This document shows, piece after piece, positions 4,231 through 21,733 of a DNA stretch of 21,887 nt (position 1 is its first letter; the number at the start of each line of letters is the position of its first letter). Source of the stretch: a virus; the IMG/VR virus record IMGVR_UViG_3300042465_003719, positions 1 to 21,887 of that record. One strand, written 5' to 3'. Made by a program: the position numbers and the translations under genes. The notes under the pieces were generated by a model. It was given only the letters and a program-made list of their open reading frames with translations. It did not search any database and was not told where the DNA came from.

Positions 4231-4405
4231 TGTAAACATTCAGGTAACCCTACAAGAAATGGAGGTCATTCTTAACTTGATTAAGAAGACCCCTATTGAA
4301 ACTGGGTTGTACCCTATGTTCGTTAAGCTAGTAAACCAGTACAATGGTATACGGCAAGAGTTAGCAGCTAAAGAGAATGCAGCTATCGCAGACCCTCTAG
4401 CCTAG
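4217..4405 (+). CDS. Hypothetical small protein, 62 residues
   Basis: Overlaps the preceding gene by 14 bases. It resembles a short two-helix phage protein type that I have seen in many tailed phages: a strand (NIQVTLQEMEVILNLIKKTP) followed by a helix (MFVKLVNQYNGIRQEL). Function unknown; no membrane segment or catalytic residues. It is the last gene of the plus-strand arm and its final 23 bases overlap the end of the minus-strand gene at 4383-7766. Confidence 0.78.
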   Translation: MQNDNVNIQVTLQEMEVILNLIKKTPIETGLYPMFVKLVNQYNGIRQELAAKENAAIADPLA

Positions 4406-7400
4406 CTGCATACTCATACACTGAGGCGTAATCTTTGGCATCTTCAAGGGTTACGCCTTTGTCACGTTTGTACATATCATTAATAGCCAAGCGTCTTTGT
4501 TGAGATAGCCTGTTGTATGCCATCTTATCTACACGCTCTTTATCTTTAGCTGTCATGTCACCCTGCACAATCGAACGTGCAGCACTTAAAGCAGTTGACA
4601 TGTTATTAGTTATAGCAACTTTCTTTTCTCTATCTGACATTGCATTGTATTCACGTGAGTCAATGCGTGGTATCACAACTTGTTTAATCCATTTACCTGC
4701 TTCTTTAATGACTGCACGATCATAGATCTTATCGCCAGTAGATCCAAACATTTGATAGGGATCTAAGTTGAGTCTTTCAACTTCTTGCTCAAGCTTGTTG
4801 CCACGTGGTACGACACGAACACCTGCTAGTGTGCTAAAGAATTCACCCGCACGTATGGGAGTTTCCTCACGTAAATAGGGCAAGTATTCAGGTAAGTCTG
4901 CCTTACCTCTTCCAACCACAGGCAGTGGTGTCTCAAGTGCGGGTACTTTAGATTTAAGTACGTTACCTGCTGATACAGCAATAATATCTTTCCATCCCTC
5001 TGCCTCAACAACATTAGGATCACGAACAATTCCTGATTCCCTGTCTATTAAATCAAAGTAAGAAAAGACAGGTTGTCCTGGCTGCATAAATCTACCTACA
5101 AAGTTACCCATCACTTTGCCTATAGCTTTAAGTGCCCTGTCAGAGTCTTTGCCCTCAGTGCCAGACAGCAACTCAGGCAGTGCTTCAAAGATTGTGCCCT
5201 GAGTTCCAGCAGGTAGTTTTAAACCTGCCATGGTTTCAATACCCTCACTTACTTTAATCTCTTCTTCTTTCTTTAGTTTAGATTTAGCTAAAGTGTCACC
5301 TATCCAGAATGCAGGACCGGCAGGGAAGAGGGAGCGTATGTCTACGGTACTACCATCTTCGGCTTGTATATTGTTCCACTTGGTGTCTTGATTCTCTAAT
5401 CTGTATTTATAGGCTGCATATATCATTGCAGTGCCAACAACACCTTGAGAAAACTTTCTCGTGCCATCACGGAATAGCCTATCTATTTCAATAGCCTCGT
5501 CAGTAACTTTACCTTGTGCTGTCTTTTTTATGGCTGCAGGGTTAGTTAAAAACTTATCTGTGGCTTGCAAGATATCAGATAGACCTGATGCCGCACCGAA
5601 AGGGCTATACTTATATTGGAAGGCTATAGCGTTAGCCATAAATCTAGGGAATGGCACAGCCAAACTACTGCCAGGGAACTTTTCTATGCCACGGATAATA
5701 TAGTTAGCTGCTGTCTCTGTCATATTCTCGATAGATGTGGCAGCTTTAGTCTTTGGCATATAGGAAAAGGTAGCCTTTAATGCATCATCAGCAGCATTGT
5801 TTAAGATACTAGTAGGTATCTTTTTATCATTGGCTAGTATTTCCATCATATCCATGCCAACCCTGCGTAAGCTTCTCTCCACACTGGCAGTGAATACGGC
5901 CCTACGGAACAGAGCATCCTGTGCTACGTTAAGTGAGTTCACAAAACGTGCACCCTTACTTAACTCTTGGTCCCCTGATTCTTGCAGTGAGTTAAGCATA
6001 AGGCTTCTTAACTTTGGATTATCTGCTAGAATAAGATCCATAGTTTCTGCTGTCATTCCTGCATCATTTAGTTTGATAAGCGTACTAAAAGAGTCATTAA
6101 CAATGTTGCTCATGCTTTGGGAAAAGTCGCCCCTTTTAAATGATCCCGTGACTGCTGATTTAACAAGCTTTCCTGTCTCATATATCGTACCTTCAAGAAG
6201 TCTGGATGCCGCATCTAAAGTAAGAGCACCCATAGTACCGTATACGTTTCTTATGGTAGTACCTAAACCAGACACCATGTAAGCTTTAGACTCTCTTTCA
6301 AGTCGGGACACAGCATTAATAGTTGCAGCACCCGAACTGACTATTTCATTGTCTCTTCCGTACAAACCATCTATAAGTCTTTGTGACTCTGGGTCTAGTT
6401 TCCCTACACTATTAAGTGCTCTTGACAGACTACTAAGACCTGCCAAACCTCTGCCCATTTCACTAGCAGTAGTTAATGAGGCTTGACCAAATTCACTTAA
6501 AGTTATATTGGCCTTTTTAAGTGCATCGTTAAATATTTCATCTGGTATTGTCACAGATCCTTCAGGTAAGTTTTTACTACGCTCACCCAAAATCATAAAC
6601 ACATCTCTAACTGCTTCCATCATTTGCTGCCCCTTCTTTGGTTTAAAAGCAGGGTCAGCATCCATGATGTATTTAACTACATCAAGAGATCTTTTATAAA
6701 TATCGTTCTTTATTTTGCCATCTGTTACAGACGTTGGTGGTGTTATTTCATCCAGTACCCGTGTTCTACCTTGCTGTATGTCAAACTGCTTAAGAACATC
6801 TTCCATCTCACGATCAAAGGCTTCTATAAAATTAGTTGTTTGCGGATTAGATGTTGGCTTTCTTTTTCCTGCTAGCTTTTCTTCTAAATCTTTCTTATAT
6901 GTAGCAGGTTTACGTGCCACACTTGCAGCCTCAAAACCACTCATCGCTGAGCCTAATACGCCTGCAAAAGCAGCTTCACCTAAATCAACTGGACCTTCTG
7001 TAGCCCCACTCTCAATTCTAATACGCTGCTGTACAATATTAGATCCAGCAGATATAGGTGCTTCTACGACAGCAGCAGTGACACCTGTACGCAATGGTGT
7101 ACTGAATGCTTTTTTAAGTAGCTGCCGTGCAGCAGCATACGTAGCAAATTTCCCAACGCCCAATCCTGTGTAGGTAAGAGGATCACTGGCAATGGACATA
7201 ACAGTCTCTGCGTAAGGTCTTATGCCTTCCTGCCCACCTTTAAGTATCGCAATAGGCACACGATCCCATAGATCGATAGCCTTACCTGCCTTCTCTGCAT
7301 CTGCAGGTTTGGCATTAGCAATCCAGTTTAGCTCAGGTACTGCATTGAGTATCGTGTTGAGTTCAATCTTACGCATCTCAGTAGCAAACCGTTTAGCGTA

Positions 7401-7766
7401 ATCTTCATTAGATTCATCTTTCTTCTGCTCGCCAACCTTACCAAATCTAGCTGTCATATAGTCTTTAATGACATTAAAGTTCTCTGGCTTTTGGTACAAG
7501 TCAACAAAGTCTACTTTATTCTCACGTTCATACCGTTCTATCTCAGCACGATCTTCCCGCTGCTTAGCCATAATACCTTTAGTGATCTGTGTCACTTTAG
7601 CTGCAGGTTTACCGTACTCTTTAAACATGCTAGTACGTTTATAATCTTTTAAGTCATCGGCAGTGCCACTGACTTCTATCTTTGGTGTGCTATCCCATTT
7701 AATACCTTCATCTTTCTGTGGTACTACAGAAGGTATAGGATCCCATTTGATATTTTCATCTGCCAT
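4383..7766 (-). CDS. Very large virion protein, probable internal (ejected) protein, 1127 residues
   Basis: The last and largest gene of the late operon. It opens with two copies of a short motif, NIKWDPIPSV (from residue 5) and GIKWDSTPKI (from residue 21), then a charged helical region (about 40-130), then long alanine- and serine-rich helical stretches with amphipathic character and no clear transmembrane segment. I see no lysozyme or transglycosylase signature. Size, position at the end of a block of virion genes, and helical composition fit the large internal core protein of podoviruses (the T7 gp16 role), which is ejected into the host envelope with the DNA. That role is inference; sequence-level kinship to gp16 is not visible. 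Start and stop of the neighbour overlap by one base (TAATG), so translation is coupled. Its 3' end overlaps the plus-strand gene at 4217-4405. Confidence 0.82.
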   Translation of the reverse strand: MADENIKWDPIPSVVPQKDEGIKWDSTPKIEVSGTADDLKDYKRTSMFKEYGKPAAKVTQITKGIMAKQREDRAEIERYERENKVDFVDLYQKPENFNVIKDYMTARFGKVGEQKKDESNEDYAKRFATEMRKIELNTILNAVPELNWIANAKPADAEKAGKAIDLWDRVPIAILKGGQEGIRPYAETVMSIASDPLTYTGLGVGKFATYAAARQLLKKAFSTPLRTGVTAAVVEAPISAGSNIVQQRIRIESGATEGPVDLGEAAFAGVLGSAMSGFEAASVARKPATYKKDLEEKLAGKRKPTSNPQTTNFIEAFDREMEDVLKQFDIQQGRTRVLDEITPPTSVTDGKIKNDIYKRSLDVVKYIMDADPAFKPKKGQQMMEAVRDVFMILGERSKNLPEGSVTIPDEIFNDALKKANITLSEFGQASLTTASEMGRGLAGLSSLSRALNSVGKLDPESQRLIDGLYGRDNEIVSSGAATINAVSRLERESKAYMVSGLGTTIRNVYGTMGALTLDAASRLLEGTIYETGKLVKSAVTGSFKRGDFSQSMSNIVNDSFSTLIKLNDAGMTAETMDLILADNPKLRSLMLNSLQESGDQELSKGARFVNSLNVAQDALFRRAVFTASVERSLRRVGMDMMEILANDKKIPTSILNNAADDALKATFSYMPKTKAATSIENMTETAANYIIRGIEKFPGSSLAVPFPRFMANAIAFQYKYSPFGAASGLSDILQATDKFLTNPAAIKKTAQGKVTDEAIEIDRLFRDGTRKFSQGVVGTAMIYAAYKYRLENQDTKWNNIQAEDGSTVDIRSLFPAGPAFWIGDTLAKSKLKKEEEIKVSEGIETMAGLKLPAGTQGTIFEALPELLSGTEGKDSDRALKAIGKVMGNFVGRFMQPGQPVFSYFDLIDRESGIVRDPNVVEAEGWKDIIAVSAGNVLKSKVPALETPLPVVGRGKADLPEYLPYLREETPIRAGEFFSTLAGVRVVPRGNKLEQEVERLNLDPYQMFGSTGDKIYDRAVIKEAGKWIKQVVIPRIDSREYNAMSDREKKVAITNNMSTALSAARSIVQGDMTAKDKERVDKMAYNRLSQQRRLAINDMYKRDKGVTLEDAKDYASVYEYAARLEGLR
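4424..4458. other. Inverted repeat near the point of convergence
   Basis: AGGCGTAA at 4424-4431 and TTACGCCT at 4451-4458 can pair as an 8-bp stem around a 19-base loop, followed on the plus strand by TTTGTC. It lies just beyond the last plus-strand gene and inside the last codons of the minus-strand gene, so it could slow or end plus-strand transcription. The T-run is short and the loop long; coding constraint could also explain it. Confidence 0.35.
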
Positions 7767-9901: not shown

Positions 9902-12900
9902 TTAACCTCCAGGAGCTATACTGAATTCAAAATCAGATAAGCCCTCTACCAATTTACCAAACGTAGCATCATCTACCCCTAATGTTTCAGCACTTAAACC
10001 TATGTCATTAAATTTACTAATGTCAAAACCAGCGAATGGATTTGCTGCAGTGCCGCTTGCCATGCCTTTAAATATATTTGTCACTGTATCCACAGCAGCC
10101 TGACCTAATGTAGTTTTACCTAGTAAGCTAGCAGTTAAACTACCCATGGCATTAACGGCGGCAGCAGTACGAGAAGCTTCTGCAGCTTTAATCGTGGCAT
10201 TCTCTTGTATCTTGGCAATAGCCAATCTATTCTCACGATCTAGATCATTCTCACCTGCTTGATAGGCATACTGCATACTATCCCTATAACCCTGCCACAT
10301 GTTGTTATACTGGGTTGTAGTCACAGATAAAGCAGCTTGAGCATTCACTTCATTAGCACGGTTAGTAGCTGCCGTATCAGCAGTGGCAATATTCCTTCTC
10401 CACTCTGCATTAGATTGATCAATGACTAATTTCTGCTGTGCATTAAACTGTTCACGATTAGCTGTTAGCTGAGCATTGAATTGCTCTACACTATTTTCCT
10501 GTCCAGTATTAAACTGTTCCATGGCATTTGTCTGTGCTGCATTGAACTGACTAACCTGTGTCTTAAGTGAAGCAAAGAACTGATCTGTCTGCATTTCAGA
10601 TGTAGCATTAAACTGCTTAGATGCGTTATCAGCAGCAGCATCATTAAAGATACTTTGTGTTATAGCCTGTGCCTTAAACATATCAGCTTGCTGCTGATTA
10701 CTAAGGTTAGTAAGATCCATTTGCAAGAAGGCTTTAGCATTCTCTACAGCAGCCTGTTGCCTGTTGTTGAGATTAGCCATATCCATAGATGCATAAGTAG
10801 CTGCATTTTGTAATACAGCAGCTTGCTCAGCATTTAAATTAGCTAAGCCAATAGTCTTCATTAATTCTGAATTATGAAGTGCAGCAGTCTGCTGTGCAGT
10901 AAATGTAATATTATTAGCTTCTGCATAACGTGAAGCATTGATAACTGCAGTCTGTTGCTTATTGTCTAAATTCTTTAGTTCAAGTGCAGCTTGCAACTGA
11001 GCATTAGCTACAGCAGCTTGTTGCTTTGTACTTAAGTTTGCTAGATCTGTCTGTAAGTTTTGAGCACTAGATTGTAAAGAAGCCTGTTGTTGATTATTTA
11101 AATTGATGTTTAGTACATCAGACTCTTTTGCTGCATTCATAAGTGCAGCTTGCATTTGATTGCTTAGATTCTGACCTTGGAATGCAGCACGAATCTGGGC
11201 ATTAGCAAGCATAGTCTGTTGCATGTTGCTAAGATTCTGAGACTGTAAGCTAAAGGCATTAGCAGAGTTCTGGAGAGCTACTTGCTGTTCTGCATTAAAC
11301 TTAGCTAACTCTACACCTTGCTGTGCTGCTGCATTAGCAAGAGCTACCTGCTGCCTATTATTCAGGTTCTGCAAGTTCATTGTTGCAAAAGTCTGAGCAT
11401 CCTGTGCTGCAATAGGCAATGCAGATTCCATAGCAGCCTGGAATATAGCTGCACCTGCCATGGAACTGTTACCTAAACCTCTAGATGCCATAGCTGCATT
11501 AGCTGCACGAATAGCACCAGCAGCCCATGCAGGAGTCTTACCGTCATCAAAAGACTTCATTAACTCCGTAAGCTGTCCCTGCACTGTAGCTTTTGCAGGT
11601 ACATCACCTTCAATGAAAGCAGCTAGTGTCCCTGCATCAACAGTAAACTTGTCTAACTTGGCAGCTACAGCTTTAGCATCAGTAGATAAACCATCAGCAG
11701 TGATAGCCTCTGCCTGTACCATATCCTTTTCTTGGATAGTGACAGGAGTTACTTTCTCACGTTCAGTTATTTCACGTGTCATTGCTGCTACTTCAGCAGG
11801 CTTATTAGCTTCTGCAGCAGTAATAACAGGAGCAGAAGTTTGTGTCTCTGCAGAAATAAGCTCTGTTGGATCTACCTTACGTGTAGCATCAGTAGCAAGT
11901 AACTGTTTATTTTTATCATCAAATGTAGCTGCTGTAGCTAATGCTTCAGTAGATAAAGTACCCTGTTCAGCAGCTACCTTAGCCTGCTCAGATACAGTGC
12001 CAGTTTTTCCTGTCACTGTTGAAAGTGCTTTAGTTATGTCTGCTTCAGTTGAGGTAGCTTCATATGTCTGTGCAGTAAGTGCAGTTGGCTCTGCTACAGT
12101 TTGAGTAGTACCTACTGTTTTAGCTGTAGCACCTGTAACTGCACCTGCACCACCTTGCCCACTAATAACTTGATCAGCGGATTCCTGTATTTTAACTGGG
12201 GCTACTTTAGGTACAGCACCAATAATAGGCTGTCCTGTCGTAGGATCAGTCCTTACTGTAGGGTCAGATACGGTATAGCCAAGCCCTGCCATTTGATCGA
12301 TAGTAGCTTGATCTACACCTGCCCTCCTTAATATGTCAGGTGTAATGTTGTTTGTATTATAAAAAGCTACTTTCTCTGAGGCATTTAAGCTATCCCAGTT
12401 ATCAGGTAGTTTGACATTTGTACCAGCTACAGTTTTACCTGCATTAGTGGCTGCGCCTTGTCTAGCAGTGTTTTGATTAACTGCAGTTGTAGCTGCAGTA
12501 TTATTAGTAGCTGCAGTTGTAGCTGCAGTATTATTAGTAGCTGCAGTTGTAGCTGCAGTATTATTAGTAGCTGCAGTTGTAGCTGCAGTATTATTAGTAG
12601 CTGCAGTATTATTAGTAGCTGCAGTATTGGCCCCCATGTTGCGTTGAGCTAAAGACTCTTGGTTGCTTTGCTCCTGGAACTGTTGGGCATAGGGCTGAAT
12701 TGCTTGTTGAAGAGCAGAAGCTGCCCCCTGAATGTCCTGCAAGCTAAAAGGACTTTTTCCTTGTCCAAAAGCATCTTGTAGCTGACCGAACTGCTGACTC
12801 AACCCCATGTAGTTTTTATAGGTTGGATCAGCCTTAAAAAGCTGTGCAAAATCGGGAAGTTTCGTAGCAACTGCAGTATTGGTGGTAGTAGTAGCTGTGT

Positions 12901-13444
12901 TATTGACAGTAGAATTACCTGCAGCTACATTAGCAGATGCATTAGTGGCAGCAGCAGGGTTAGTAACTGAGTAACCCATATTCTGTGTCATGTGATCAAT
13001 CGTAGCTTGATCTACACCAGATGCAGCAAGCATAGCTGGTGTGACACCTTGTTGATTATAAAACTCTACTTTCTTATCCCCACCCAGTGAATCCCAATTA
13101 GAAGGGAGGGCAATATTAGTACCTGCTATAGTCTTACCTGCATTAGTAGCAGCACCTTGTTGTGCAGTAGTATTGGTAGCACTTTTCTGAGTAACGTCAG
13201 CTTCTACAGAAGTGGGATCATCTTCAATACGCTTGTCACCTACACCACCAACAGCGTACTTCTTACGCTTAGTCTTCTTAGCCAGACCGCCACGTGCCAT
13301 ATATTTATCCGCAACTAATCCATACCTTTGTGCCATTGAAGGATCAGATTTAAGAAACTCATCGAACATAGACATAGGACCATCGTAGCCCAATCTACGT
13401 GCTACAATCTCTTTTTGCTTTGTAGTAAATTCTTTGCTTGGCAT
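9902..13444 (-). CDS. Large repetitive virion protein with hendecad helical rod, 1180 residues
   Basis: The start follows AGGA at a normal distance. Residues 1-50 are a compact domain (KEIVARRLGYDGPMSMFDEFLKSDP) that I recall from structural proteins of marine phages. A 65-residue module (residues 95-160, containing WDSL, EFYN and GVDQATID) is duplicated at 328-392. Between them lies a Gln-rich stretch and a low-complexity T-A-A-T-N-N run (about 272-322). Residues 440-610 are Thr/Ala-rich. Residues 691-932 are eleven 22-residue repeats of the form x-x-N-L-x-N-x-Q-Q-x-A, and 943-1019 are seven 11-residue QFNA repeats; together they should make a very long helix. The C-terminal 160 residues contain a hydrophobic helix region. 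No enzyme motif is seen. It is probably an internal or tail-core virion protein; Q/N/A-rich helices of this sort occur in podovirus ejection proteins. Confidence 0.85.
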   Translation of the reverse strand: MPSKEFTTKQKEIVARRLGYDGPMSMFDEFLKSDPSMAQRYGLVADKYMARGGLAKKTKRKKYAVGGVGDKRIEDDPTSVEADVTQKSATNTTAQQGAATNAGKTIAGTNIALPSNWDSLGGDKKVEFYNQQGVTPAMLAASGVDQATIDHMTQNMGYSVTNPAAATNASANVAAGNSTVNNTATTTTNTAVATKLPDFAQLFKADPTYKNYMGLSQQFGQLQDAFGQGKSPFSLQDIQGAASALQQAIQPYAQQFQEQSNQESLAQRNMGANTAATNNTAATNNTAATTAATNNTAATTAATNNTAATTAATNNTAATTAVNQNTARQGAATNAGKTVAGTNVKLPDNWDSLNASEKVAFYNTNNITPDILRRAGVDQATIDQMAGLGYTVSDPTVRTDPTTGQPIIGAVPKVAPVKIQESADQVISGQGGAGAVTGATAKTVGTTQTVAEPTALTAQTYEATSTEADITKALSTVTGKTGTVSEQAKVAAEQGTLSTEALATAATFDDKNKQLLATDATRKVDPTELISAETQTSAPVITAAEANKPAEVAAMTREITEREKVTPVTIQEKDMVQAEAITADGLSTDAKAVAAKLDKFTVDAGTLAAFIEGDVPAKATVQGQLTELMKSFDDGKTPAWAAGAIRAANAAMASRGLGNSSMAGAAIFQAAMESALPIAAQDAQTFATMNLQNLNNRQQVALANAAAQQGVELAKFNAEQQVALQNSANAFSLQSQNLSNMQQTMLANAQIRAAFQGQNLSNQMQAALMNAAKESDVLNINLNNQQQASLQSSAQNLQTDLANLSTKQQAAVANAQLQAALELKNLDNKQQTAVINASRYAEANNITFTAQQTAALHNSELMKTIGLANLNAEQAAVLQNAATYASMDMANLNNRQQAAVENAKAFLQMDLTNLSNQQQADMFKAQAITQSIFNDAAADNASKQFNATSEMQTDQFFASLKTQVSQFNAAQTNAMEQFNTGQENSVEQFNAQLTANREQFNAQQKLVIDQSNAEWRRNIATADTAATNRANEVNAQAALSVTTTQYNNMWQGYRDSMQYAYQAGENDLDRENRLAIAKIQENATIKAAEASRTAAAVNAMGSLTASLLGKTTLGQAAVDTVTNIFKGMASGTAANPFAGFDISKFNDIGLSAETLGVDDATFGKLVEGLSDFEFSIAPGG
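9906..9910 (-). promoter_or_regulatory. Shine-Dalgarno of the 67-residue gene
   Basis: GGAGG on the minus strand, seven bases before the ATG at 9898, inside the last codons of the 1180-residue gene. It confirms that this small gene is real and efficiently translated. Confidence 0.75.
10388..10618 (-). repeat. Seven 11-residue QFNA repeats (coding)
   Basis: Residues 943-1019 of the 1180-residue protein divide exactly into seven 11-residue units: KQFNATSEMQT, DQFFASLKTQV, SQFNAAQTNAM, EQFNTGQENSV, EQFNAQLTANR, EQFNAQQKLVI, DQSNAEWRRNI. The phenylalanine recurs at position 3, giving the hendecad (11/3) pattern of a straight or slightly right-handed helix. Confidence 0.9.
10649..11374 (-). repeat. 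Eleven 22-residue helical repeats (coding, 66-bp period)
   Basis: Residues 691-932 are exactly eleven contiguous units of 22, without gaps. The recurring core is N-L-x-N-x-Q-Q-x-A followed by N-A at positions 14-15; examples are LANLSTKQQAAVANA (from residue 801) and MANLNNRQQAAVENA (from residue 889). Each unit is two hendecads. Confidence 0.92.
12269..12463 (-). repeat. Second copy of a duplicated 65-residue module
   Basis: Residues 328-392 of the 1180-residue protein (starting RQGAATNAGKTVAGTN, ending GLGYTV) repeat residues 95-160. The order GAATNAGKT, AGTN, LP-x-NWDSL, FYN, GVDQATID, GY-x-V is kept in both copies. Confidence 0.9.
12481..12628 (-). repeat. Tandem repeat, four perfect 30-bp copies plus shorter units
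   Basis: A 30-bp unit beginning CTGCAGTTGTAGCTGCAGTA and ending TTATTAGTAG is repeated four times without a mismatch (12481-12600), followed by an 18-bp unit (12601-12618) and a further partial unit. Each copy holds two CTGCAG palindromes and codes for ten residues made only of Thr, Ala and Asn on the minus strand, so copy number can change without a frameshift. Confidence 0.95.
12965..13162 (-). repeat. First copy of a duplicated 65-residue module
   Basis: Residues 95-160 of the 1180-residue protein (starting QQGAATNAGKTIAGTN, ending MGYSV) match residues 328-392. The copies are diverged at many positions, so the duplication is older than the 30-bp tandem repeat beside the second copy. Confidence 0.9.
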
Positions 13445-13448
13445 ATCT

Positions 13449-13922
13449 TTATCCTAACATAACGGCTTCTGCATTTCTTCGTATGGTTAAGCCTCTTAGT
13501 ACCCTACCTGCAGCTTTATTCCACTTCCTACATTCTTCTTGTGCACCTGCCCAATCTTTGGCATCAATGCGTTTTTTAAATGTGGATATCCGATAGTTAC
13601 CTAACCCACAATTATACACCCAAGATAATATAGCTGCAATACGCTTTGGGTTTTCTTGTGCGACCCCAGGTGATAATTTTAATAATCCATTAAGAAAGTA
13701 TAGTAGGTGTTCATCTAAAGCATGTTCACATTGTTCCATAGTCCACACAGTATCTTCAGTAATATCTGGACCTGTAGAACCGTAGCCTATAGTCCAAGGC
13801 TTGCCACCTGTCCCTGGATCTGGATAAGCTTTTACTAATTTGTTTGGTAGTATTGTTGCACAGCCTTCAAAGGGCTTTATTAATGTTTCTTTTGATATTT
13901 TAATAGCCTCTTTAAGACTCAC
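13449..13922 (-). CDS. Endolysin, GH24 (T4/lambdoid-type) lysozyme
   Basis: Cleaves the glycan chains of host peptidoglycan at lysis. The 157-residue protein shows the GH24 catalytic pattern: Glu19 in PFEG, Asp35 in AYPDPGTGG and Thr44 in PWTIGYGST. The GPDIT..TVWT segment and the late WVYNCGLGNYRISTFKKRI and LRGLTIRRNAEAVMLG blocks also fit. Between Glu19 and Asp35 there are about seven residues more than in the common EG-x-x-L-x-AY-x-D form. There is no signal peptide or SAR-type anchor, so export must depend on a holin. The start is GTG at 13922, the only start codon before the catalytic Glu, with AGGA seven bases upstream; it overlaps the stop of the cyclase gene as GTGA, so endolysin translation is probably coupled to the cyclase. 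Confidence 0.94.
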   Translation of the reverse strand: MSLKEAIKISKETLIKPFEGCATILPNKLVKAYPDPGTGGKPWTIGYGSTGPDITEDTVWTMEQCEHALDEHLLYFLNGLLKLSPGVAQENPKRIAAILSWVYNCGLGNYRISTFKKRIDAKDWAGAQEECRKWNKAAGRVLRGLTIRRNAEAVMLG

Positions 13923-15151
13923 TGCCTCATCCTATTTTCATCTAAAAACTTTATTTCATCTACTAAAGCATCTGCATCTGTTTTAAAGTTATTAAAATCA
14001 CTCTTGCTTAAAGTCTTATTAAGTGCATCTAATAACTCTTGTGCTTCTTTATTGTGCTGAGCACGTGCTGCATACAACCATCTAAATGCATTTTTATTAT
14101 CATTGATACTTTTATAGTACATACCTAGGTTTAACATAGCTTGTACTTTACGTTTCATTGCATATTCTTTTAAATCGCTAATAGCTTCTTCTATTTCTTT
14201 ATCACTACTATTAGGGCTATTAAAAATCATAAGAGCTAAACGGTAATTAGCTTCTTCATTTACACTAGCAGCACCACGTAGAAACTGTAAAGCTAAACTA
14301 GGACTATCTTTCTCTATAAGGTCTGCTATCTGCATAGCAGTTTCACTATCTACTTTAGTGCAGTATTCTTTAAATATAGCAAATACATAAGGCTTAAGAT
14401 CATTAGGGACAATATTTTTCTGTAGCATATTGACTAATTCACTTACAGCTTTATTATCTTGCTTACTAATTCTCCACATTAATACACGAGTAGCAGGACC
14501 ATACTTATTATCATGCTTAAGATTAATAGCATCTTGTATACTATGATTACGTGCAGCTTGATCGTTGATAACTGCAGCTATTAATTCTTTATGACTTTTA
14601 TTATTTGTTACTTTTGTAGGCTTAGTACCTTTATTTAAATACGGGTTAGGTTCACATCCATCGATTATAACGCTATATATTTCTATAGGGTTTACATTTT
14701 TAAATTCTTGTACACCCCTACTTATAATTTTATAATCATTTAGTTTACCTGATACTAACTTATACACAGTGTCTGTCATAGTGACACCACCGTAGTCAGC
14801 TAGGGATTCCGTTCTTGCTGCAAGATTAACTGCTTCACCCATAAGATCAGTGCCATATACCCACACTTCTCCCATATGAATACCAACTCTCCACCGTAAA
14901 CCACTGTTTAATTTACGTAAAGCTGCTTGCATTTCAACACCAAAATTAACTGCATCGACAGCACTTGCAAACTCAATTAATACAGAATCCCCACCTGTGT
15001 TAAATAACCTGCCACGTTTTAAACTGATTAATGGGTCTATAACACTTCTACATGCATCTAACATCTTTAATGTTAAAGATTCATTCTCTTGCATCTTTGC
15101 ACTATAGCCAATGACATCAGAGCATACAATAGTAGCAAGTTTAGTTTGCAT
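13919..15151 (-). CDS. Class III nucleotide cyclase (adenylate/guanylate cyclase homology domain) with Sel1-like C-terminal region
   Basis: Predicted to make a 3',5'-cyclic nucleotide from an NTP. Residues 5-165 form a complete cyclase domain of the type common in rhizobial multi-cyclase families: ATIVCSDVIGYS with metal ligand Asp12, GRLFNTGGDSVLIEF with second metal ligand Asp55, RVGIHMGEV, and DLMGEAVNLAARTESLA with transition-state Asn109 and Arg113. Asp102 sits where adenylate cyclases have the base-binding Asp. The base-binding Lys, normally four residues before the second metal Asp, is Asn51 here, so the substrate is open to doubt. Residues 185-380 are helical; 301-375 (ANYRLALMIF, AMLNLGMYYK, NAFRWLYAARAQ) look like Sel1/TPR repeats. 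No membrane segment is seen, so it should be cytoplasmic and, with one domain, act as a homodimer. It starts two bases after the holin stop with a weak ribosome binding site and overlaps the endolysin start. Confidence 0.92.
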   Translation of the reverse strand: MQTKLATIVCSDVIGYSAKMQENESLTLKMLDACRSVIDPLISLKRGRLFNTGGDSVLIEFASAVDAVNFGVEMQAALRKLNSGLRWRVGIHMGEVWVYGTDLMGEAVNLAARTESLADYGGVTMTDTVYKLVSGKLNDYKIISRGVQEFKNVNPIEIYSVIIDGCEPNPYLNKGTKPTKVTNNKSHKELIAAVINDQAARNHSIQDAINLKHDNKYGPATRVLMWRISKQDNKAVSELVNMLQKNIVPNDLKPYVFAIFKEYCTKVDSETAMQIADLIEKDSPSLALQFLRGAASVNEEANYRLALMIFNSPNSSDKEIEEAISDLKEYAMKRKVQAMLNLGMYYKSINDNKNAFRWLYAARAQHNKEAQELLDALNKTLSKSDFNNFKTDADALVDEIKFLDENRMRQ

Positions 15152-16021: not shown

Positions 16022-16525
16022 TCATGGTCTAGTAGGCCACACTACATTATGAGGGAATCCCTCTTGAGCAGTTATATCTCGTAGTGCTTGACGGTATGTT
16101 GCCCATGCAGCTTTATCTACAGGTGCATCAGCTACCTGTGTCCAATCAGATTCAGTAAGCTTTTGATTACGCTGCTGACGTATGGCTTGAGCTTGTTCTG
16201 CATCTTTCATTGCCATCCATGCAGAACGCTGTTCCTCTACTGTAACTTCCCCACCTTCACTATTTGTGTAGGGATAAAACAGTGGACCTAATACGTACTT
16301 GGTATACCATTTACCGTCAGCTTTTAGTTCTACACCCTGGCGTTGACTATACTCATACACATTAGTAGGTGTAGCCTGTGGACCTTCAAACACTGGATCT
16401 ACGCCTAGCTCTGCCATAATTTCAGGTGTCAGTGTTTCATAGCTAGGTCCGTTATTGTCTTTCAGATACTGCCTGAATTCACTTTCGTACATCACTTGAC
16501 CTGTTGCACGTACTCTAAGTTCCAT
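16022..16525 (-). CDS. Phage tail assembly chaperone
   Basis: The C-terminal half is diagnostic: IRQQRNQKLTESDWTQVADA, then WATYRQALRDITAQEGFPHNVVWPTRP. This R-x2-RN-x2-L-x2-DW ... YRQALRD ... FP-x-x-V-x-WP pattern is that of the tail assembly chaperone family (Pfam Phage_tail_APC, from memory), which sits beside fibre genes and assists fibre or tail assembly. The N-terminal half (residues 1-90) is a variable domain with GKWYTKYVLGP, probably matched to the particular fibre. AAGGA precedes the start. Immediately downstream of the 666-residue tail gene, as expected. Confidence 0.9.
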   Translation of the reverse strand: MELRVRATGQVMYESEFRQYLKDNNGPSYETLTPEIMAELGVDPVFEGPQATPTNVYEYSQRQGVELKADGKWYTKYVLGPLFYPYTNSEGGEVTVEEQRSAWMAMKDAEQAQAIRQQRNQKLTESDWTQVADAPVDKAAWATYRQALRDITAQEGFPHNVVWPTRP

Positions 16526-16534
16526 GGTAATTCC

Positions 16535-18535
16535 TTAAGCTATAGCTAAGAAGATGTAAGTTGCAGAGGATACATTGATATTAGTAGCTGCTAGTTGATT
16601 GACAATAAAACCAGTGCTATCAGTGTCAATGCTATCGTTTGTTGTAACTTCTGCTGCCGTTGAATTTAAACTTAGGTGAGGGTCATTGCCTGCTACAATA
16701 CCTCTGGCAGTATCCCAAACATACCAATCACCCGTGCTGTCAGTGCGCTTAATTAGTACAAACCTAGCACCACCTGTGAAACCACAATTGATAGTCTGAC
16801 TAGAACCATTGCCTGTGTAGCTGCCGACTTTAGATACGCCAGCGCAGGTGGCAAAGAGGTAGGCGACATAGGTGGCTGCACTTTTATTAACTATGTCATT
16901 GGTTCCTATATATACTTGCGTTGCTGTTGGAAGAACTGGAGTCCCGCTGCTATCAGCAAACTTCCCGTTAAGACCGCCGCCTGCTGCATTAAGGTCTAAA
17001 TATAAAAATCTACGATCAGGGCTAGAACTTGCGGCAGTACACATAACAGCCCAATTTTCTCCAGTAGCCCCCGCTCTCCATTTAACAATTACAAGTTCAG
17101 GCGCAACACCTAAATTGTGATTGAACGTAGTCGCAGAACCCGTCCCCGTGTAGCACACCACATCAAAGAAGCCGGGGGCACGTCGGAAGTTTAGGTAAAT
17201 ATTAGCTGAGCCAGCAAAAGCATCGCTAGGGGTGAATGTAGTGTTTGTAAAAGAGTCACCACTGCTATATAAGTCTTCGGCGTTTACTGAAGAAGTGTGT
17301 AGTGCGACAGCGCCAGAATCGGTTGAAGTAGACGACAATCCTCTTAATCTGTCTGTTATTGTATTTTTTACAGCGGCGTTACCTGAAGTTCCAGCAAGGT
17401 AATCTGCAAATTGCATATCAACAGGAAATCCTGTTGTAAGAACTGTACTTGTACCCCCGCTTGATGCAATAGGACTAAACACACTCGTCCCACTTGTCGG
17501 TACTTTCATCGGGCCACGGCGAATGGCTATGTAGATGAATGTTTGCGATGAACTAGAGTTCGCATCAACAAACCCTGTACTGTTTGGATAAATATACGCA
17601 AAAGCAGATTCAGCGTCTGCTACGTTTGGGAAAAGAGTCTGGGCAATGGAGTTAAAAGGGTTTGAGGCAACCGGCATACCACGCATAACGTCAACAATTT
17701 CCCAATAGTTTGTAGCATTTATATTTTTTCTTAATATCCACTGTGGTTCCCAGCCTAAATTAACTGTAATAGCCCCAGATCCTCCCGTATAACTCCCACA
17801 CGAAATCACATTGTCTGACCCACTTAGGCCAAAGCCACCTGCGTTGTGGGCAAAGAGGTAGGCAACGTAGGTCTGACCGGACTGATTCCATTCAGAGTTT
17901 GAAGTCCCTACAGAAAAACTTGTGCTGGTAAAACCTGATGTTCCCCAAACGCCAGTCCCAATGTCTACAGCATTAGTTGCATTTAGCAACATAAACTGAT
18001 CTGTTGTAAAAGTTCTATGCCACACAGGCCATGCAGCAGCACCAGATGTTTTCTTAACAATTACACAACCGGGAATGCTTCCTAATGAATGCGAAATTGT
18101 GTTGTTGCTTGCCCCATTCCCCGTATACGTCACCACATCAAAGAACTTCGGCTGCTTGCGAAAGGTCCATGAAGCAAAAGTATTGTTTATAAAATTTACG
18201 TCACTGTCGCTTCCCATAGTGAAGCCACTGGAAGAGAAAGCATTTATTGATGTTGCGTCTGTGTACTGGGCAATAGTTCGGTCTGTGTTAAGTTTTTGGG
18301 TAGCTCCACGCACTGTGTCAACTAGTGCATTGTAGCCAAGAGTGGATCGACATTTCGCCCAAACCAACCCACCCTTACCCGACAGATTAATACCATTGGT
18401 GATCGTCTGCGTAGAGCCATTACCCGTGTACAGGTAAGTTGAGAAAACGTCTTCGATGTATACTTTCTCTGCACCGCCCAAGGATAATCCAAACCCCTGA
18501 GCAGATGCAGCACCTTTGGTTTCTAATAACGGCAT
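16535..18535 (-). CDS. Modular tail protein with five YTGxG modules, 666 residues
   Basis: A short N-terminal segment (KGAASAQGFGLSLGG) typical of phage tail proteins is followed by five related modules of about 100 residues, each beginning near a YTGNG or YTGGS turn (residues 36, 137, 249, 462 and 573). They contain a V-I-V-K strand, a W-x-V-W/I-W strand, T-S-T-G-F and an AYLFA or IYIAI end strand. The modules are diverged, rich in Ser, Thr, Gly and Asn, and of evident beta structure. This is probably a fibre, appendage or decoration protein of the tail tip. Such repeated beta modules are known from uncharacterised marine phage proteins; binding target unknown. It lies between the long fibre and the tail chaperone, ten bases from each. 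Confidence 0.85.
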   Translation of the reverse strand: MPLLETKGAASAQGFGLSLGGAEKVYIEDVFSTYLYTGNGSTQTITNGINLSGKGGLVWAKCRSTLGYNALVDTVRGATQKLNTDRTIAQYTDATSINAFSSSGFTMGSDSDVNFINNTFASWTFRKQPKFFDVVTYTGNGASNNTISHSLGSIPGCVIVKKTSGAAAWPVWHRTFTTDQFMLLNATNAVDIGTGVWGTSGFTSTSFSVGTSNSEWNQSGQTYVAYLFAHNAGGFGLSGSDNVISCGSYTGGSGAITVNLGWEPQWILRKNINATNYWEIVDVMRGMPVASNPFNSIAQTLFPNVADAESAFAYIYPNSTGFVDANSSSSQTFIYIAIRRGPMKVPTSGTSVFSPIASSGGTSTVLTTGFPVDMQFADYLAGTSGNAAVKNTITDRLRGLSSTSTDSGAVALHTSSVNAEDLYSSGDSFTNTTFTPSDAFAGSANIYLNFRRAPGFFDVVCYTGTGSATTFNHNLGVAPELVIVKWRAGATGENWAVMCTAASSSPDRRFLYLDLNAAGGGLNGKFADSSGTPVLPTATQVYIGTNDIVNKSAATYVAYLFATCAGVSKVGSYTGNGSSQTINCGFTGGARFVLIKRTDSTGDWYVWDTARGIVAGNDPHLSLNSTAAEVTTNDSIDTDSTGFIVNQLAATNINVSSATYIFLAIA

Positions 18536-18544
18536 ACTTTACTC

Positions 18545-21500
18545 TTAAGCAAACTTGGTTTGTGAAGCTAATGCAGTGAACGTAGCACTGCCTGTCTTGA
18601 TAATCGTAATTACATAAGCATCAATCGAGCTTGCATTACCTGCTGATGGTGCAGTACCACCTTGCCACTTGGGAGTGACTGATACAGAATCTACTTGGAG
18701 GGCTGATTGATAGTAAGCCGTTGCACCGTTAGTGACTAGGAAAGCTACCGTAATCGATTGCCCTGTGGACATGATGCTGTCTAAGCTCACACCCGATGCA
18801 CCACGGATATTCAGCGTCCAGTTGGCACTTGCATTGCTTGTGTAGTACAGAACCGATTGGGTTCTTGTATCGTAGTTTATCGTGCCTGTTGCTGCTGTAG
18901 CCGATACGGTAGCCTGTTCAAACATCGCAGCGTTAAGCTGAACCATGCCACGCAGACGGGTGCTTGTAATGCTGGTGTTGCCAATTGTGACTTCGTTGCT
19001 GACTGATGCAGAGGATACGTCGGCGTTATAACCAATGACAATATTGTTTGAGCCAGTCGTTAAGCTACCACCTGCCGCATAACCAACAGCGGTATTTTGT
19101 GTGCCCGAAGAGTTCAAGTAAAGAGCGATACGGCCAACAGCGGTATTTTGTGCGCCAGTGTTTACGCCAAGAGCACTGTAACCGACAGCCGTGTTATCAG
19201 AGGCTGTGGTGCTAGAAGTTAAAGCCCCTCTACCAATGGCTACGTTATAATTACCAGTCGTATTAGCATCTAATGCTTCCATACCAATAGCGACGTTATC
19301 TGCGCCGGTGGTGTTGGCGTAAAGAGCTAGGTAGCCAATTGCGGTGTTGTTAGAGGCGGTGTTGGTAAATAAAGCATCATACCCAATCGCAGTATTATAA
19401 TTACCAGTGCTATTTGAATATAATGATCGATAACCTATTGCTGTATTTCTTACAGCGCTTGTTGCAGAATTTTGAGAAAAAAATCCGATAGCTATAGAAC
19501 CACCTGAGCTTGTTGAATAATATAAAGCCTCTTGACCAATAGCTATATTTCCGGCGCTTGTCTCTAGTCTCAAAGCAGCTTGCCCAATACCTATATTGCT
19601 TTGCGACGAGGTTGTTCCACTAAGCGTCCCAGAACCAATAGCGACGTTGCTACCCCCTGTTGTGATAGCGGTAAGTGCAGCGTTACCTATAGCCACGTTT
19701 GCAGTTGAGGTGGTTTGAGAACGTAATGCAGTAGAACCTATGGCTATATTAGATTGGCCTGATGTTGTTGAAAGTAGAGCCTCATACCCTATTGCTACAT
19801 TGTTTTGAGAGTTAACCGTAGTGCCAAGAGCATTTGATCCAATTGCTACGTTGTACACACCCGTTGTATTAGCATCCAGTGCCTTAAAACCAACCGCAGT
19901 ATTATCTGTACCCGTGCTATTAACTAACCCAGCCTGATAGCCAATAAACGTGTTGTTGACACCGGTGTTTGCATTACCAGCTTGATAACCCAGTGCAGTC
20001 TCAAAGGGTGTGGCTGAGTCGGTTTGGCCTGATAAAGATGCTACAGTAGCAAACGATAATGTTCCAGATCCGTTGGTTGTCAATACTTGATTGGCACTAC
20101 CGTCTGTTGTTGGTAGAGTAAATGCAGTTACAAAAGATTGAAGATTAGAATCATATGCAAGTACATTAGTGCCAATATCGGATGTCGTTAAGAATGATCC
20201 TGCAGAAAACGTAGCACCACTCCATGCAGAACCTGTCCAAACATATAACTGGTTATTGGTAGTATTCCAATAAAGAGCACCAGTTAGAAGTGCATTACCA
20301 TCATTATCTACTGAAGGTGCTGAAGACTTAGGACCAAGGTATCTGTCATCAAAAGAATCATAGCTAGCTGCTGCTGCACTAGCAGATGCTGCTGCATTAG
20401 ATGCGCTTGTAGAGGCATTAGATGCGCTTGTAGCAGCGTTAGAAGCACTGGTAGCTGCTGCTGCTGCACTTGCTGCTGCACTCGTTGTAGAGCCAAATAA
20501 AGTGTCTATATAGTTCTTTGTAGCTGCATCCTGAGCACTTGAAGGATCACCCATGCCAGTGATCTTATTTGTACCCATTGCAATAGCACCTGTCATCGTA
20601 CCACCTGACAAGCTTAGCTTTGTAGCATCTGCAGTATCTACATAGACTTTAGTTGCTGCATCCTGATTAGCAGTTGGATTACCTAGACCTGTAATCTTAT
20701 TCGTACCCATTGCAATAGCACCAGACATCGTGCCACCTGCAAGTGCAAGCTTAGTTGCAATAGAGTTGGTAACTGTCGTAGCAAAGTTAGGATCATCACC
20801 TAATGCTGCTGCAAGTTCATTGAGTGTGTCTAATGTACCAGGGGCAGTATCAATAAGGTTTGATATAGCAGTATCTACATAGTTTTTAGTAGCTGCATCC
20901 TGAGCATTAGTTGGGTCAGTAATATTAGTAATCGTAGCTGCACTAGAAGCATCCATATTCAATGTGCCATTGATGGTCACATTGTTGAATGTACTTGATC
21001 CAGAAGATGCAGTGACGTTGCCTGTTAGATTGCCTGTAACATTGCCAGTTACATTACCTGTTAAGTTACCTGTCACATTGCCAGTTACTGCACCTGTAAG
21101 TGGGCCTACAAATCCAGTGGTAGCTGTGATTGTCGTACCAGTAATAGCTTGAGCAGATGCACCACCAATTACAGTACCATCAATCGTACCTGCATTAATA
21201 TCTGCACTAGCAATGACAGCAGATGTATTTACTGTAAGTGAAGGTGTAGTAACAGAAGTGTTAGCTACAAGTGTAGTAAATGTACCTGCTGCTGCAGTAC
21301 TACCACCAATAATAGCGGCATCAATAGTTCCACCATTAATATCAGCAGTGTCAGCTACAAGGCTATCAATATTAGCTGTACCATCAATGTACAGATCTTT
21401 AAACTCAAGTGAAGATGTACCTAAGTCAATATCATTATCAGTGACGGGTACGAATGCACCATCTTGAAATCTTACTTGTTCTACTGCACTAGAACTAACA

Positions 21501-21733
21501 CTGATAAATACACCTACACGATTGTTAGAGCTATCAGTGACTACCTTATTGCGATTATTAGAATCTGAGATTAAAGGTACATAAGCACCTTCAGCAGCAG
21601 TACCGTCATGCCTGTGACCAGATGCTTGAGCAAAGGCATCACGCAATGCGTTATATTCATTGTTAATGGGCGTAGCCCTAACAACTGCGGTAGGTACAAT
21701 ATCCGCTGAAGATTGTCTTACATAACCTGCCAT
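18545..21733 (-). CDS. Tail fibre with YadA-head-like repeats, 1062 residues
   Basis: Probably a trimeric receptor-binding fibre. Residues 1-100 are an N-terminal, probably tail-attaching, domain (NNEYNALRDAF, GHRHDGT). Residues 100-210 hold strand repeats such as DLGTSSLEFKDLYIDGTANI. Residues 214-241 are V-T-G-N / L-T-G-N repeats. Residues 270-411 contain three DP/NP-x4-QDAATK-x-Y-x-D units, two preceded by GGTM-x-GAIAMGTNKITG. Residues 415-457 are an Ala/Ser/Asn-rich trimeric stalk. Residues 578-919 have 21 units of the N-x-A-I-G-Y-x-A-L type, the pattern of the YadA/trimeric autotransporter head beta-roll. The C-terminal domain (930-1062) with PKWQGGTAPSAGN and ASQTKFA is a widespread ending in marine phage fibres. 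AAAGGA lies before the start. The upstream structural gene ends 26 bases away. Confidence 0.93.
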   Translation of the reverse strand: MAGYVRQSSADIVPTAVVRATPINNEYNALRDAFAQASGHRHDGTAAEGAYVPLISDSNNRNKVVTDSSNNRVGVFISVSSSAVEQVRFQDGAFVPVTDNDIDLGTSSLEFKDLYIDGTANIDSLVADTADINGGTIDAAIIGGSTAAAGTFTTLVANTSVTTPSLTVNTSAVIASADINAGTIDGTVIGGASAQAITGTTITATTGFVGPLTGAVTGNVTGNLTGNVTGNVTGNLTGNVTASSGSSTFNNVTINGTLNMDASSAATITNITDPTNAQDAATKNYVDTAISNLIDTAPGTLDTLNELAAALGDDPNFATTVTNSIATKLALAGGTMSGAIAMGTNKITGLGNPTANQDAATKVYVDTADATKLSLSGGTMTGAIAMGTNKITGMGDPSSAQDAATKNYIDTLFGSTTSAAASAAAAATSASNAATSASNASTSASNAAASASAAAASYDSFDDRYLGPKSSAPSVDNDGNALLTGALYWNTTNNQLYVWTGSAWSGATFSAGSFLTTSDIGTNVLAYDSNLQSFVTAFTLPTTDGSANQVLTTNGSGTLSFATVASLSGQTDSATPFETALGYQAGNANTGVNNTFIGYQAGLVNSTGTDNTAVGFKALDANTTGVYNVAIGSNALGTTVNSQNNVAIGYEALLSTTSGQSNIAIGSTALRSQTTSTANVAIGNAALTAITTGGSNVAIGSGTLSGTTSSQSNIGIGQAALRLETSAGNIAIGQEALYYSTSSGGSIAIGFFSQNSATSAVRNTAIGYRSLYSNSTGNYNTAIGYDALFTNTASNNTAIGYLALYANTTGADNVAIGMEALDANTTGNYNVAIGRGALTSSTTASDNTAVGYSALGVNTGAQNTAVGRIALYLNSSGTQNTAVGYAAGGSLTTGSNNIVIGYNADVSSASVSNEVTIGNTSITSTRLRGMVQLNAAMFEQATVSATAATGTINYDTRTQSVLYYTSNASANWTLNIRGASGVSLDSIMSTGQSITVAFLVTNGATAYYQSALQVDSVSVTPKWQGGTAPSAGNASSIDAYVITIIKTGSATFTALASQTKFA
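18977..20002 (-). repeat. Twenty-one NxAIGYxAL units (coding)
   Basis: Residues 578-919 of the fibre hold 21 copies of a motif with spacing of about 14-19 residues, such as NTAIGYDAL, NVAIGMEAL and NTAVGYSAL, often with an N-T-T-G or S-T-T-S linker. This is a solenoid pattern of the YadA head type. Confidence 0.93.
20363..20491 (-). repeat. Ala/Ser/Asn low-complexity stalk (coding)
   Basis: Residues 415-457 of the fibre are almost entirely Ala, Ser, Thr and Asn in a 7-residue rhythm (T-S-A-S-N-A-A), expected to form a trimeric coiled-coil stalk between the two halves of the fibre. Confidence 0.85.
21014..21103 (-). repeat. VTGN/LTGN four-residue repeats (coding, 12-bp period)
   Basis: Residues 211-240 of the fibre run through seven successive copies of (V/L)-T-G-N after an initial LTGA. 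At the DNA level this gives a degenerate 12-bp repeat. Such runs are frequent in fibre shafts of marine phages. Confidence 0.9.

Follow-up and report, generated by a model that had tools for sequence, protein, structure and literature searches.

YadA-like fibres are already known as a kind among phages, and published precedents exist. A tail fibre with a YadA domain was reported in a marine pelagiphage (PMC3909814), and its description in the available part of that paper, a variable C-terminal YadA-like part recruiting few metagenomic reads, resembles the fibre described here. In the parts of the other sources that were available, a YadA-domain protein was found in a cyanophage virion by mass spectrometry (PMC9146016), YadA-type proteins occur in algal viruses and one polinton-like virus (PMC12906663, PMC12220804), and several phages carry yadA homologues that, as described there, do not adjoin tail genes (PMC3728262). 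Similarly available in part, further reports describe tail fibres shared among distant marine phages (PMC10579305) and speculate that adhesin heads adapt by gaining or losing whole layers (PMC9543794). Neither a 17-residue phage roll nor whole-turn exchange in phage fibres was found among the literature titles and abstract openings listed, drawn from a body of literature with few subscription journals, and the whole-turn pattern in phage fibres may be new.

The window, that is, the whole stretch of DNA analysed, comprises an entire virus record of 21,887 bases. A 1062-aa ORF on the minus strand at 18545-21733 encodes a tail fibre, as indicated by the match of aa 130-545 to the tail fiber protein profile phrog_38058 (E 2e-20) and by a nearby gene for a tail fibre assembly chaperone-like protein (16022-16525, minus strand; PF16778 Phage_tail_APC, E 3.9e-23). 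The T7 gp17-type fibre profile PF03906 scored 20.4 bits against a curated cut-off of 25.2 and covered aa 259-292 only. On the minus strand, the fibre gene is followed by a gene for a DUF7483 virion or tail fibre protein (16535-18535; PF24299, E 1.2e-82; phrog_24898 tail fiber protein, E 3.1e-66), the assembly gene, a possible holin (phrog_3427, E 1.6e-4), a cyclase-domain protein and an endolysin. A 1127-aa protein at 4383-7766 is 22-24% identical to eight phage records, including Roseobacter CRP phages and Puniceispirillum phage HMO-2011, which, together with the CRP match of the fibre's N-terminal module, makes the phage a distant relative of the HMO-2011/Roseobacter CRP group. No tRNA and no Rfam match were found in the window. 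The 410-aa protein next to the endolysin (13919-15151, minus strand) carries an adenylate/guanylate cyclase domain (PF00211, E 2.2e-9) and weakly matches Pycsar cyclases (E 0.0023), and tblastn against 50,697 phage records returned no match to it. A perfect 30-base tandem repeat of 4.2 copies (12481-12607) lies within a 1180-aa ORF at 9902-13444.

The fibre gene combines parts that also occur separately. The N-terminal module (aa 1-488; 20270-21733, minus strand) is common to many marine fibres, and its 95.6% nucleotide identity to the viral locus L002 stops at its end; L002 keeps the C-terminal domain and has about 190 residues where the solenoid would be, in which the solenoid profile finds no match. 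The tail fibres of Roseobacter phages CRP-1, CRP-2, CRP-9 and CRP-13 share the module at 63-68% aa identity, with 44-47% of the query matched, but all of these matches end at aa 504-507, short of the solenoid. Conversely, proteins annotated as tail fibres in Pelagibacter phages HTVC111P and HTVC112P and in Prochlorococcus phage P-SSM2 are 38-44% identical in amino acids to the solenoid, over about aa 560-904, while among the matches listed the N-terminal module is unmatched. The scans for relatives kept the best 80 of at least 497, 80 of 206 and 80 of 119. At least 84 viral ORFs match aa 1-130 of the module, and 51 of them have an intact 3' end. Of these, 40 lack both the solenoid and the C-terminal domain, six have the solenoid only, three the C-terminal domain only and two, including the window, both. 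Clustering on the last 130 residues divides the 40 into 21 groups.

The coiled-coil stalk proposed in the preliminary description is partly borne out. An Ala/Ser heptad tract at about aa 413-461 (20351-20497, minus strand; lag-7 identity 0.60), with a 21-base tandem repeat at 20394-20455 inside it, probably forms a coiled coil, but some 115 residues without this heptad separate it from the first solenoid unit. The C-terminal domain (aa 931-1062; 18548-18943, minus strand) is indeed a common one: phrog_5906 matches aa 926-1061 (E 2.5e-27) and at least 31 ORFs among the viral loci carry it, the window's included. Across 23 homologues with many different upstream regions, this tip is 60-95% identical in amino acids to that of the window. 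No Pfam family was found for it, and its predicted structure (pLDDT 79) has no PDB match at E <= 0.001 in Foldseek. The best VIA-align rows, phage spike and tail proteins, reach a Z of only 5.0 and below, so the fold was not assigned from them.

Between these parts lies the solenoid (aa 578-930; 18944-20002, minus strand). The 21 units first recognized in the letters were recovered, 17 of them with 17 residues and four (units 1, 9, 13 and 17) with 16; the low end originally given, 18977, falls within unit 21, and the array runs from 20002 down to 18944 when the last unit is set to 17 residues. The periodicity of aa 571-925 is beyond chance: residue identity at lag 17 is 0.364 (z = 17.3 against 1000 shuffles, the largest of which gave 0.151), and the motif [AFGVT][IV]G is found 20 times, where shuffled sequences average 2.8 and reach at most 9. 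A glycine stands at constant phase in 21 of 21 units, which the unit splitting itself requires, the period being shown independently by the lag identity. The consensus of 1217 seventeen-residue units, collected across 61 distinct viral heads with a pattern that requires the G, is N-T-A-[VI]-G-x-x-A-L-x-x-N-T-T-G-x-x. Within the window's array, the best unit-to-unit nucleotide identity is 0.67 (mean 0.46) and TRF listed no tandem array over the solenoid, so there is no sign of recent slippage in this copy. By pattern count the 61 heads, some of them truncated, hold 4 to 105 units; very long solenoids by this count are those of L133 (3593-9946, about 105 units), L159 (1289-6730, about 81) and L113 (about 69).

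The window is 95.9% identical in nucleotides to locus L082 over 21887-19824 and 94.3% over 16874-14554. The breaks fall inside the solenoid, at units 3/4 and 19/20. The N-terminal end units 1-3 (19853-20002, minus strand) remain 96.6% identical until about aa 623, the interior of units 4-19 (19046-19852) drops to a 20-codon identity of 0.43-0.70 over aa 621-900, and the identity recovers to 0.87-0.90 at aa 901-940, including the C-terminal end units 20-21 (18944-19045), and ranges from 0.65 to 1.00 over the C-terminal domain. The C-terminal end units and the C-terminal domain also vary against L082, so after the second break identity climbs back to an intermediate 78-84%, not to 95%. Both fibres have 21 units, while L083 has 24 and L061 has 15, all with end units of the same type. 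The adjoining DUF7483 gene differs strongly from L082 over its first part, and the variable island therefore spans two virion genes.

Among 35 pairs of head-bearing loci, five distinct pairs (six rows, as L098 = L099) are not at least 97% identical throughout, namely window/L082, L004/L063, L097/L098, L111/L155 and L118/L136, the last with 730 bases aligned. The head is altered in all five (0.00-0.72 of it covered at 85% identity), and it is fully covered in 28 of the other 29 pairs, the exception being L102/L117 (0.52), apparently since the L117 contig ends there. L097 differs from L098 by a gap of 187 residues, or 11 x 17, within a largely identical solenoid; the heads of L004 and L063 differ as far as the last unit; and those of L111 and L155 share the middle and differ at both ends. 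The L098 fibre is also longer by about 78 residues in its stalk, within a repeat of TQLSGATITG type, so the fibre shaft varies in length too. Together with L002 and the combinations in which the N-terminal module is found, the L082 and L097/L098 comparisons point clearly, at the level of sequence, to modular exchange of the solenoid region among phage fibres, which upholds this part of the original proposal.

In columns with a local identity of at least 0.8, the only ones used, dN/dS for L097/L098 is 0.70 in the head, 0.18 in the stalk and 0.12 in the tail (Fisher p 0.001); the head of L111/L155 gives 0.25, which is not raised, and between the fibre genes of L105 and L106, on contigs with an overall identity of 97.5%, there is no difference. 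Replacements in the pairs examined fall preferentially on unit positions 6, 7, 10, 11, 16 and 17 (18/330 vs 11/605, p = 0.005), a set drawn from the unit consensus data and fixed after the dN/dS counts were known. According to the available part of one report (PMC12012533), a loop lateral to the CbpF roll is where its receptor binds, and in UspA1 the stalk, not the roll, carries the site for the same receptor, CEACAM1. This makes lateral contact plausible for the window's solenoid. Its sides may thus offer a long lateral surface for receptor contact, as initially suggested, with a raised head dN/dS in one pair and not in the second, and the fibre as a whole would trimerise and bind a receptor. 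We consider it fairly probable that this is a receptor-binding marine phage fibre whose solenoid is an exchangeable recognition cassette held between end units of constant type. Against this reading stand the lack of an adhesin match in Foldseek, the high VIA-align scores of other solenoids, the weak profile links and the absence of PF05658 matches in the viral heads, all given below, the lower certainty of units 1, 2 and 21 in a monomer model, the L111/L155 dN/dS, the unchanged L105/L106 pair and the incomplete recovery of identity to L082.

The strongest competing explanation, that the solenoid is a passive spacer setting fibre length while the C-terminal tip or the DUF7483 protein contacts the receptor, appears unlikely to us. 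It would fit the wide range of unit numbers among the viral heads, the difference in the DUF7483 gene between the window and L082, the CEACAM1 site in the UspA1 stalk and the unraised dN/dS of L111/L155. However, the tip is the conserved part of the fibre, the window and L082 differ in the interior of the solenoid while the number of units is unchanged, and the replacements between L097 and L098 cluster in the head.

The preference for a recognition cassette draws in part on the predicted fold. An AlphaFold2 monomer of aa 541-1062, built on 27 hand-picked aligned sequences, has a mean pLDDT of 77, with 82-96 per 10-residue block over aa 601-920, and strands that recur with a period of 17 residues; confidence is lower for units 1, 2 and 21. 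In VIA-align against 238 chains, the head of BpaC came first (Z 24.1, 313 residues, 4.3 A), followed by UspA1 (Z 18.2, 236 residues, 2.6 A), CsgA (17.8), CbpF (17.3) and YadA (15.1). Non-adhesin solenoids also score high, as seen for CsgA and, at about 14.5, for GlmU and an ice-binding protein. The monomer thus superposes best on YadA-type heads, in line with the YadA-head-like roll first proposed, and the solenoid is predicted to be a left-handed parallel beta-roll, its handedness following from this superposition; the model supports the view that it would work like a YadA head. As far as the available part of the comparison source goes (PMC9543794), the window's head shares with BpaC (7o23), UspA1 (3pr7), CbpF (9gh5) and YadA (1p9h) the predicted fold, the conserved glycine per turn and one turn per repeat, but its turns have 17 residues (16 in four of them) against 14 in the adhesins and 15 in UspA1. 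It also differs from them in lacking a PF05658 match and a membrane anchor and in lying within a phage fibre; no Pfam match to the YadA anchor of trimeric autotransporter adhesins was found in the whole protein (E <= 1) or in its C-terminal part.

Searches by sequence and by structure database gave less. A profile of 28 unit triplets, hand-chosen from 321 distinct ones, matched YadA (1p9h) alone among PDB sequences at E <= 10, with E 0.03 and a best single stretch of i-E 1.4, and the sequence-level link to YadA is marginal. A whole-head profile from a 57-row alignment retrieved no adhesin from the PDB, but carbonic anhydrase-like and hexapeptide chains, namely 7ar9 (E 0.0039) and two of hexapeptide type. 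With Foldseek against the PDB, the head model had no hit reaching E <= 0.001, and no adhesin head was listed up to E 10, the first row being GlmU (E 0.4); at E <= 0.001 it matched 108 viral predicted structures, including S74 proteins and a P-SSM2 protein described as a putative T4-like proximal tail fibre. PF05658 had no match in the window head at E <= 10 and matched none of the 57 viral heads scanned (of 61 distinct) at E <= 0.01 and two of 60 bacterial heads, these being the first 60 of the 92 plus-strand heads of at most 700 aa among 111. By the tests made, the solenoid is not filed as a PF05658 member, and the Pfam YadA model probably misses the phage heads because their turn is three residues longer. 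Scanned by itself against Pfam at E <= 10, the solenoid yielded a single weak match, to a capsid model (E 0.044), and against NCBIfam it yielded nothing useful. In a phmmer search of the whole fibre against PDB sequences, the shaft matched 9d93 and, weakly, 6v8i, and the sole row over the solenoid was a nanobody (E 0.5).

The repeats could instead belong to another class of left-handed solenoid, the hexapeptide type, or to a roll that arose by convergence and shares no ancestry with YadA-type heads, as the hexapeptide rows of the whole-head profile, the GlmU row in Foldseek and the unit length of 17 rather than 14-15 would allow. We regard this as improbable, given that the Z of BpaC exceeds that of the first non-adhesin row by about 6 and that of GlmU by nearly 10 and that YadA is the sole PDB match of the triplet profile.

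Unit 11 (SIAIGFFSQNSATSAVR, 19498-19448, as originally read) lacks the usual N and AL, and it was suggested to mark, with its flanks, a seam between two recombined halves. These units do differ from the rest: units 10-12 (19397-19549, minus strand) have a GC3 of 0.10 against 0.38 elsewhere in the array (p = 0.0016, from synonymous shuffling for the lowest 51-codon stretch), which may record the import of about three turns. A seam at this place is nevertheless very improbable, although both the odd unit and the GC3 dip (p about 0.002) would agree with one. The odd unit recurs in locus L090, flanked in order by the same neighbours; this locus also gives the best match to units 10-11, 11-12 and 12-13, is colinear with the window over units 10-13 and has a copy of units 10-12 that is not low in GC3. 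Against L082, the array breaks at units 3/4 and 19/20. By these alignments, unit 11 is a landmark within a block common with L090, not a junction of two halves.

Relatives of the solenoid also occur in bacteria. By eye count of titles, about three quarters of the best 80 of 119 bacterial relatives are from Bacteroidota, the rest from Ignavibacteria, Gastranaerophilales, Patescibacteria and others. Their repeats are mostly of 17 residues (0.654 of 1311 gaps), in a search that was itself seeded with 17-residue repeats; among the bacterial loci found by it, no link to autotransporter adhesins was seen. The 100 bacterial tails scanned, from 111 bacterial ORFs, carry the S74 chaperone (PF13884) in 72 cases, a secretion-system sorting domain in five and the YadA anchor in at most one (absent among 25 of 26 families listed). 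On the viral side, 74 solenoid-bearing ORFs gave 53 distinct tails of 50 aa or more, and 33 of these contain S74. The S74-chaperone proteins of phages, Bacteroidota and other bacteria resemble the window fibre in their mostly 17-residue repeat, but they end in PF13884, whereas the window fibre ends in phrog_5906, with neither S74 nor any Pfam family in its tail. On four bacterial contigs (L173, L197, L208 and L222), three or four neighbouring ORFs each carry a 17-residue solenoid, suggesting that such bacterial proteins come in clusters. The mostly S74-type bacterial tails, the near absence of the anchor and the repeat length lend no support, within this search seeded with 17-residue repeats, to the exchange between adhesins and fibres proposed in the preliminary description. 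A recent origin of the solenoid from a bacterial trimeric autotransporter adhesin, for which the shared fold in the VIA-align superposition could be cited, is hardly credible, since viral relatives are nearer (63% and 58% aa identity for the best solenoid-plus-tip matches in the best 80 of 206, against 46% at the top of the best 80 of 119 in bacteria), the bacterial tails are of the kind just described and the repeat differs from the 14-15 residues of adhesins.

How a solenoid of this kind could serve as an exchangeable cassette can be outlined from the model. Each 17-residue unit would be one turn of a parallel beta-roll of YadA-head type; three chains would form a rod whose sides, made up of the variable residues of each turn, may contact the host surface, and the end units and the C-terminal domain would keep the three chains in register and together. 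As the turns are stacked one upon another, whole turns could be swapped, gained or lost in register, and host recognition could change with no alteration to the shaft by which the fibre is attached to the virion. We put forward tentatively, as rather less likely than the recognition role itself, that this long-turn variant of the adhesin head acts as a quantised cassette, through which recombination changes both the receptor and the reach of a phage that is otherwise about 95% identical.

In summary, an altered middle of the rod in close relatives probably changes the host surface that is gripped. If this is true, natural pairs of near-identical phages would differ inside one solenoid bounded by end turns of constant type, in one case by an exact whole-turn step, so that a single stretch of protein could be tied to host choice and recognition would be varied without touching the fibre shaft.
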